This document shows positions 17,065-18,678 of a DNA stretch of 26,333 nucleotides, one piece after another (position 1 is the stretch's first letter; each line of letters starts with the position of its first letter). The translations under genes and the position numbers were made by a program. Source of the stretch: a virus; IMG/VR virus record IMGVR_UViG_3300030385_002437, positions 1 through 26,333 of that record. One strand, written 5' to 3'. The notes under the pieces were generated by a model, which searched no databases, was not told the origin of the DNA, and worked only from the letters and a program-made list of their open reading frames with translations.

Positions 17065-17967
17065 TTATACCCCAACAGCTGTGGCTTGTAAACCTTTATT
17101 TGAACGCCACTCTAGAAGGTCCTGGGCTATCAATCCTATAGTGTAAGCCACTGGAGGTGCAACAGCATTGCCTAGGCATTTGAGGCGGTGAAGTTGATCG
17201 GGAACCCCATGAGCCACTCGACCCACATCGGGTTCAACCTCCCATGGGTTTTCTGGTGTTTCGATATATGGATTTCGAGGTCCGGCACATCTATCCGGCT
17301 CACTGTGTTCGCCCAGTGTTTCCCTTTCCTCTTCGAACCCGAGTCGATAAGGGTTTGTTGTGTTCTGTCCTTGGCTGCTATTAGTTCCTCCTTTGCCACC
17401 TGACACGATTCCTGATTGTCTAGAATGTCCATCACTACTGCCAGGCCGTCTAGGCTCGGTGTCTTCGCCTTTGTTGTATTGAACCTCCCCGCCATTGGGG
17501 TAGGCCAGGATGAAGATGCGGTCACGTCTGTGAGGGGCGCCAAGGGCTGAAGCTGGTATGCAATCCCACCAGCTGTCATACCCGACCTCGGCCAAATCCT
17601 CGAGAACTGTTCCGAGCCCCCTAATAGTGAGAGCTGATACGTTTTCCATGATTGCGAGCTCTGGTCTAAATAAGCGAATGAGTCGACACATCTCTTTCCA
17701 TAACCCGGACCTCTCGCCCTCAATGCCAACTTTGTTGCCTGCTCCTGAAATGTCTTGGCAGGGGAATCCCCCACAAATGACATTTGGTCGTTCAACGGTT
17801 TCATCGATTGTTCTAACGTCTTCATAAATCGGCACGCTCCAATGTTTGCGTAAGATTGTTTGTGCAAAGGGTTCCATCTCACACTGCCAAATTGTGTGCC
17901 CCAGTCCTGACCACTCGAGGCCCATCTCTAGGCCGCCTATACCACTGAACAGACTCCCAATCTTCAC
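17065..17967 (-). CDS. DNA (cytosine-5) methyltransferase
   Basis: This 300-residue enzyme transfers a methyl group from S-adenosylmethionine to cytosine in DNA. Motif I is LFSGIGG (6-12), motif IV GGFPCQ with the catalytic C70, motif VI ENVSAL (108-113), motif VIII PHRRDRIF (145-152) and motif X LGNAV (265-269). The target-recognition part between motif VIII and the end is short and polar (about 155-250). The start is a GTG that overlaps the upstream TGA (GTGA) behind AAGGTGA. No restriction enzyme is recognisable nearby, so it is probably an orphan enzyme that protects phage DNA from host restriction. The +1 frame of the same DNA is also open over 236 codons (see the next entry). Confidence 0.93.
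   Translation of the reverse strand: MKIGSLFSGIGGLEMGLEWSGLGHTIWQCEMEPFAQTILRKHWSVPIYEDVRTIDETVERPNVICGGFPCQDISGAGNKVGIEGERSGLWKEMCRLIRLFRPELAIMENVSALTIRGLGTVLEDLAEVGYDSWWDCIPASALGAPHRRDRIFILAYPNGGEVQYNKGEDTEPRRPGSSDGHSRQSGIVSGGKGGTNSSQGQNTTNPYRLGFEEERETLGEHSEPDRCAGPRNPYIETPENPWEVEPDVGRVAHGVPDQLHRLKCLGNAVAPPVAYTIGLIAQDLLEWRSNKGLQATAVGV
17172..17825 (-). CDS. Overprinted +1-frame protein inside the methyltransferase gene
   Basis: In the +1 frame of the methyltransferase, the DNA is open from 17882 (GTG) to a TAG at 17172. ATG starts lie at 17825 (217 residues) and 17783. Neither has a good Shine-Dalgarno sequence; GGAG lies 11 bases before the first. The product reads like a family: GDSPAKTFQEQA (19-30), SWKTYQLSLLGG (59-70), IWPRSGMTAGGIAYQLQPLA (77-96), SWPTPMAGRF (106-115), and the closing LNPMWVEWLMGFP (197-209). 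I recall proteins with this WPRSGM...EWLMGFP pattern from phage genomes, often beside cytosine methylases. Caution: these blocks lie over conserved methylase motifs (GDSPAKTF over motif IV, EWLMGFP just before motif X), so part of the resemblance could be a shadow. No function can be assigned. Confidence 0.5.
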   Translation of the reverse strand: MKTLEQSMKPLNDQMSFVGDSPAKTFQEQATKLALRARGPGYGKRCVDSFAYLDQSSQSWKTYQLSLLGGSEQFSRIWPRSGMTAGGIAYQLQPLAPLTDVTASSSWPTPMAGRFNTTKAKTPSLDGLAVVMDILDNQESCQVAKEELIAAKDRTQQTLIDSGSKRKGKHWANTVSRIDVPDLEIHISKHQKTHGRLNPMWVEWLMGFPINFTASNA

Positions 17968-18443
17968 TCGTCACCTTCTTCCAGGTTGGTGGTTAACAGT
18001 TCCAATTCTTCATGGTTATCTATTACCTTACCAGGCTCTACGTTGTCAAGGGTAATCAAGATCTTCTGGATAGCGATCTCTGTTTCTTCTTGCAAAGATT
18101 TAAAGGGATTGTTGGGGTCTTCTCCAATCAATTGCCGGTCTGATTGGCCCAACTCATTCTTCCCGAGCCAGATCAACATGGTTGTGTTTCCCTTCTTCGC
18201 TTGGTCCCATTGGAGGTCACGAAGGTTGAGGCGTCGCACACTCTCGCCCCTTTTTATAGCGGCCAAGAACTCAGGATCTTCTTTTTTACGGGTTTTAATA
18301 GTAGAAAGGCTGCACCCTAGCTTGATAGCCATGTCATCGAGTGTAGCTCCCTTAAAGGCTAATGCCTCAACTACATCGTTGCTGAAATCAAGGCGGGGGC
18401 GTCCCCCTTTACTCTTCTCGTCTGGTTCAGTCATCAGTCTCAT
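17964..18443 (-). CDS. Likely terminase small subunit (HTH protein)
   Basis: This 159-residue protein opens with KGGRPRLDFSNDVVEALAFK and then a helix-turn-helix (TLDDMAIKLGCSLSTIKTRK), followed by FLAAIKRGESVRRLNLRDLQ and KKGNTTMLIWLGKNELGQSD. This layout (GRPR, HTH, then '...GN.TM.IWLGK..LGQ') is typical of HTH proteins annotated as small terminase subunits, which recognise the packaging site. The C-terminus is acidic and would contact the large subunit. The start could also be the ATG at 18434, which overlaps the upstream TGA. It lies more than 2 kb from terL, with a methylase and a phosphoesterase between. A plain DNA-binding regulator is the alternative. Confidence 0.7.
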   Translation of the reverse strand: MRLMTEPDEKSKGGRPRLDFSNDVVEALAFKGATLDDMAIKLGCSLSTIKTRKKEDPEFLAAIKRGESVRRLNLRDLQWDQAKKGNTTMLIWLGKNELGQSDRQLIGEDPNNPFKSLQEETEIAIQKILITLDNVEPGKVIDNHEELELLTTNLEEGDE

Positions 18444-18678
18444 TTGATTCTACCAACTTATCGTAATCAATACAAGTTTCATCATGGCCCTTGCGTCCTA
18501 ACCTCATGATGGTTCGTATATCACACTGGCAGAACCTAACCCAGATAGTGGGAACAGATTCAGGCGAAGGGAGGTCTACATCTAGCTGACCGCACTTGTC
18601 GCAACTCCACCAATCCTTATGCCATGTGAATATTCCATTGGAGCAGGTATCGCATAGAGAATTTGTCTTATACTTCAT
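18427..18678 (-). CDS. Small zinc-ribbon protein
   Basis: This 83-residue protein starts at an ATG that overlaps the upstream stop (ATGA). It has a four-cysteine ribbon: C9-DT-C12 and C26-DK-C29, with aromatic residues between (FTWHKDWWS). A further FCQCD lies in the second half. The ribbon implies zinc binding. The gene sits between the resolvase-like nuclease and the small terminase. The function is unknown. Confidence 0.75.
   Translation of the reverse strand: MKYKTNSLCDTCSNGIFTWHKDWWSCDKCGQLDVDLPSPESVPTIWVRFCQCDIRTIMRLGRKGHDETCIDYDKLVESNETDD

Follow-up and report, generated by a model that had tools for sequence, protein, structure and literature searches.

A conserved protein overprinted on a phage C5 cytosine methyltransferase gene probably supplies motif IX of a split enzyme

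Reports of long gene overlaps on the same strand in bacteria and phages are disputed, and evidence of selection exists for few of them. Among C5 cytosine methyltransferases (MTases), the gene for the small subunit of M.EcoHK31I is nested out of frame in the gene for its large subunit. A published account presents M.EcoHK31I and M.AquI as natural two-polypeptide C5 MTases (PMC3404938). As described there, the large subunit of M.EcoHK31I (YGGCCR) has motifs I–VIII and X, the small subunit carries motif IX only, and the predicted target-recognition domain (TRD) is placed in the large subunit; in M.AquI (CYCGRG), two polypeptides together carry the motif set (PMC3404938). A different kind of overlap is found in ShiLan, where a hidden HNH endonuclease is encoded by an out-of-frame open reading frame (ORF) in a phage DNA methylase (PMC11855218). 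Among open-licence papers, apart from EcoHK31I/AquI and the ShiLan HNH element, we found no report of a phage C5 MTase with an overlapping subunit.

The window, which is the whole 26.3 kb stretch of an IMG/VR virus record that was analyzed, bears terminase, portal, protease, capsid, and tail genes on its minus strand. On the same strand, a C5 cytosine methyltransferase of 300 aa with a GTG start, hereafter alpha, is encoded at 17065..17967 and was identified using PF00145, AlphaFold, and Foldseek. The terminase small subunit gene (17964..18443, minus strand, by ORF coordinates; phrog_309, E 2e-12) is just upstream, and its stop overlaps the GTG of alpha by 4 nt. An antisense ORF of 153 codons opposite the terminase small subunit gene (17986–18447, plus strand) is probably due to chance. 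The catalytic domain of alpha, with motifs I, IV (PCQ), VI (ENV), and VIII, matches PF00145 over residues 1–166 (1e-39). Motifs I–VIII and X are in frame, without motif IX, and include the catalytic GGFPCQ of motif IV (17755..17772), motif VIII GAPHRRDRIFILA (17503..17541), and motif X LGNAVAP (17155..17175), all recognized by sequence on the minus strand. The match to PF00145 covers profile positions 1–171 of 324, and that to TIGR00675 ends at 163.

Inside this gene, the +1 frame of the minus strand is open for 251 codons from stop to stop. The ORF from the first possible start, a GTG, has 236 codons (17172..17882) and is the version that an earlier note had described from the sequence. The start is likely not the GTG and is instead the ATG at 17825, which yields a protein of 217 aa (17172..17825), hereafter beta; GGAG at 17837..17840, 11 nt upstream of this ATG, is a possible Shine-Dalgarno. 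The N-terminal part of beta, SWKTYQLSL...IWPRSGMTAGGIAYQLQPLAPLT (17529..17651), lies over motifs IV–VIII of alpha, has predicted beta strands, scores 96 bits against a null maximum of 56, and is a candidate target-recognition part. The middle segment is weakly conserved and, in the window, is not above its own null. The block RLNPMWVEWLMGFPINF (17190..17240), which is motif IX by comparison of L150 with M.HhaI, scores 52.5 bits against a null maximum of 18.6, and motif X of alpha is located just past it.

By layout, the locus can be likened to M.EcoHK31I, with motifs I–VIII and X in alpha and motif IX in the small polypeptide. However, the TRD of M.EcoHK31I is published as being in the large polypeptide, whereas residues 170–255 of alpha fall in a gap that is variable in length and predicted to be disordered, and the TRD is predicted to be held, probably, by beta. 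M.EcoHK31I also belongs to a restriction-modification system, whereas the window has a phage gene with no restriction endonuclease recognized among the neighbor genes searched. M.AquI has a divided variable region and both motifs IX and X in its small subunit, whereas motif X of the window stays in alpha; the relatives in Krili and Blue7 are nearer to M.AquI in layout. The single-chain enzymes M.HhaI and M.HaeIII share the catalytic fold and motifs of alpha but, unlike alpha, whose profile match ends at 171 of 324 ahead of the disordered gap, have the small domain, TRD, and motif IX all in one chain. The ShiLan HNH is a homing insertion, whereas in all members sampled it is the gene core that beta overlaps.

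In 20,000 synonymous-codon shuffles within the methylase gene of the window, the longest open run in the +1 frame averaged 89 codons and peaked at 214, never reaching 251. The claim of the earlier note that this frame is open beyond chance is thus borne out, and every sequence block it quoted from the product is present. The third frame has a longest open run of 45 codons compared with a mean of 50 in the same shuffles. Near the expected start of beta, 62% of genes have a +1-frame ATG with a Shine-Dalgarno of at least 4 nt versus 31% in shuffles, and 15% versus 2.4% have one of at least 6 nt. This enrichment favors beta having its own initiation over frameshifting.

Loci found through the +1 protein are a biased sample and we therefore drew a second sample from IMG/VR by using a conserved methylase pattern only. 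A scan with a single MTase sequence gave one locus only and was replaced by a scan with an alignment. All 80 genes of this methylase-side sample encode a +1 protein matching the beta profile, and in 79 of them beta is entirely in the +1 frame, with L150 as the exception. In 160 further loci, both frames are intact in 149, beta is interrupted by a stop in one, and the remainder are split or frame-swapped.

Conservation of the methylase could by itself create a similar pattern, a caveat raised by the earlier note. The profile null test included 87 distinct genes, composed of the methylase-side sample minus duplicates, L150, and L173, plus the window and bacterial contigs that beta had led to. 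The real genes have a mean score of 183 bits to the beta profile (minimum of 106), whereas shuffled genes have a mean of 65 bits and never reached the real score. Over the segment of motifs IV–VIII, the values are 77 bits real and 31 bits shuffled, with the shuffle reaching the real score in 7 of 87 genes; for the motif IX block, they are 41 and −3 bits, with the real score reached in none of the 87. About one third of the beta profile score can be put down to conservation of the methylase alone. The caveat is therefore real, accounting for ∼65 of ∼183 bits overall and ∼31 of 77 over motifs IV–VIII, yet it contributes nothing to the motif IX block and is insufficient to explain the beta signal. 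The +1 frame of the methylase encodes a real, selected protein.

In the overlap, position 3 of alpha codons is position 2 of beta codons and position 1 of alpha is position 3 of beta. Across 30 independent gene pairs of the enterobacterial type, from prophages, 75% of the changes that precede beta fall at alpha position 3. In the gap between motifs VIII and IX, 60% are at alpha position 1, the rate of which is 0.154 per site compared with 0.048 and 0.053 for the others, and past the stop of beta, alpha position 3 leads again with 53%. For 20 pairs from other phages, not all of which are independent, the pattern is 65% at position 3, 43% at position 1 in the gap, and then 55% at position 3. For the Firmicutes-type set, in which the motif VIII landmark failed and two regions were merged, a shift to the beta frame is clear only in the motif IX block. 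Judged from these substitutions, beta is the more constrained frame in the gap, and its family is under purifying selection in its own frame. The variable recognition region had been singled out beforehand as the fair test of overprinting, and it was passed, with the fastest-evolving base being the third position of the +1 frame rather than that of the methylase.

The beta ORF matches phrog_1008 (E 2e-22; best stretch is residues 27–145 of 236 aa), which is already labeled "DNA methyltransferase", so the protein is not wholly undescribed as the earlier note had supposed. The label, however, records neither the overlap nor a role in supplying motif IX. Searches of beta against Pfam and NCBIfam found nothing useful, and sequence and profile searches against the PDB returned weak, unrelated matches only. 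The C-terminal block of beta, LNPMWVEWLMGFP, is near-invariant and is C5-methyltransferase motif IX. In rare relatives, such as L150, the alpha frame itself contains this block; in L150 it comes immediately ahead of motif X, and the IX–X region aligns without gaps to residues 270–318 of M.HhaI; the score of 6 bits is weak alone, but the order after motifs I–VIII is right. With motif IX in frame, the L150 protein matches PF00145 over positions 2–322 of 324 and TIGR00675 over 1–321. The alpha frames of all 87 genes lack the motif IX block. In Lton, Nimbo, Aggie, Quico, Trax, and Baddon, the alpha frame contains motif IX and the +1 frame does not; in Krili and Blue7, alpha stops after motif VIII, and motifs IX and X are found in a +1 gene that overlaps it in part. 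Across the layouts of L150, the Lton group, and Krili and Blue7, motif IX thus shifts from one frame to another and, in these cases, is present once.

Rather than a distinct enzyme or an independent anti-restriction protein, beta is most likely the missing part of the same methyltransferase. The broader proposal, overprinting by a real protein that acts together with the methylase, finds support in the conserved +1 frame, the substitution pattern, and motif IX. Free-standing relatives, which were also anticipated, were not found in the 160 further loci, and beta overlaps the methylase frame fully or partly wherever examined. In some actinophages, which have motif IX in the alpha frame, the N-terminal part of beta is nonetheless still in the +1 frame, suggesting that supplying motif IX is not the sole role of beta. 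Most simply, the role of the retained part itself would be target recognition.

At L187, L190, L191, L192, L188, L012, and L150, the alpha frame bears motif IX, and the N-terminal part of beta in the +1 frame nonetheless scores well above the shuffle null. In L260, L344, L349, L351, L352, L355, L357, and L358, the two frames exchange C-terminal ends in the gap, such that the N-terminal part of alpha is joined to motif IX and that of beta to the other end, possibly due to sequencing errors or because these are pseudogenes. In L173 (1850–4090), the beta frame continues without a stop into a downstream primase/helicase-like ORF, possibly as a fusion.

The AlphaFold model of alpha has a confident catalytic domain (residues 1–160) and C-terminal helices around motif X, and is disordered from about 170 to 255, where the small domain belongs. 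Foldseek aligned alpha to the large (catalytic) domain of M.HhaI only, with ∼163 columns at 1.5 Å. As modeled, alpha is predicted to have no ordered small domain. The model of beta alone has low confidence except for a beta-sheet region (residues 49–91), and a Foldseek search of the PDB with this low-confidence model gave no meaningful match. A poor fold of beta by itself may be expected if the subunit needs a partner, and its predicted beta-sheet region falls short of proving a TRD.

We suggest that the locus very probably encodes a split C5 methyltransferase, in which alpha is complemented by an overprinted beta providing motif IX and, probably, target recognition. Frame 0 would yield alpha, the catalytic domain with motifs I–VIII and X, and the +1 frame would yield beta, probably by separate initiation at the internal ATG. 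The N-terminal part of beta would be rich in beta structure and be followed by a "WPTP" segment and motif IX. The two would assemble into a single enzyme whose small (target-recognition) domain is provided by beta; neither is predicted to work alone. The phage genome, adjoining terminase genes, and failure to recognize a restriction endonuclease nearby suggest that the enzyme may methylate phage DNA, the simplest purpose being protection from host restriction. It is possible, though on balance somewhat doubtful, that beta is the specificity subunit and that its target-recognition domain is double-coded by the catalytic core of the enzyme it steers.

Were the locus to encode a single protein, methylase conservation and codon bias alone would have to keep the +1 frame open and similar, and shuffled genes do score ∼65 bits to the beta profile and ∼31 over motifs IV–VIII. 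But no shuffle reached the real scores, which have a mean of 183 bits, the motif IX block has no null signal, and substitutions switch to the beta-frame pattern in the gap. A pure artifact of conservation is contradicted by the shuffle test and was rejected as highly improbable. Programmed +1 frameshifting that joins motifs I–VIII of alpha to motif IX of the beta frame in one chain would fit the colinear order of these motifs, and the natural frame-swapped variants L349, L352, and L260 join the N-terminal part of alpha to motif IX. Such a chain would, however, waste the conserved N-terminal part of beta over motifs IV–VIII and lose motif X, and the Shine-Dalgarno enrichment before the beta ATG favors a separate start, making frameshifting unlikely.

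Retention of the N-terminal part of beta in actinophages with an alpha-frame motif IX would also be consistent with a separate regulator or anti-restriction protein that overlaps the methylase by chance. This is quite improbable because beta bears the motif IX that is missing from alpha in 87 genes and AlphaFold predicts alpha to be without an ordered small domain. The ShiLan element, an out-of-frame ORF in a phage methylase as well (PMC11855218), raises the idea that beta derives from a mobile insertion of the type seen in actinophage methylases. Beta, however, overlaps core motifs IV–VIII and is not an insertion, is in all sampled family members with neither insertion boundaries nor a patchy distribution, and matches no nuclease family; an HNH insertion is scarcely conceivable and was rejected.

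The pair of alpha and beta that we interpret as a split enzyme is found in phages of Mycobacterium, Synechococcus, Microcystis, Acinetobacter, Salmonella, and Lacticaseibacillus, on a Leptospira plasmid, and on an archaeal plasmid, and Gordonia phages have variants of it. DNA similar to an enterobacterial member is in 68 of 5,426 complete E. coli genomes, and the beta frame is present in all three E. coli regions inspected. This methylase design, with two proteins in one stretch, is widespread in phages and prophages and is usually annotated as a single gene. Database records annotate the alpha frame, the beta frame, or both, and RefSeq annotates alpha alone or two broken fragments in the E. 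coli regions inspected. With only one frame annotated, or with the gene regarded as broken, these enzymes resemble methylases that lack a target-recognition region. In E. coli Ec1117 (L195, 2495–3664), RefSeq has two broken fragments, yet the frame is open from stop to stop across the gene.

The overlap described here has more than 200 doubly coded codons and is backed by hundreds of diverged loci. If the split-enzyme reading is true, cloning the annotated protein alone would produce an inactive enzyme and codon optimization would destroy beta. The locus offers a tractable system for studying the co-evolution of two subunits under double coding and is amenable to tests in E. coli. If beta is indeed the specificity subunit, the same nucleotides, read in two frames, would carry the evolution of both catalysis and sequence recognition in phages, bacteria, and archaeal plasmids.
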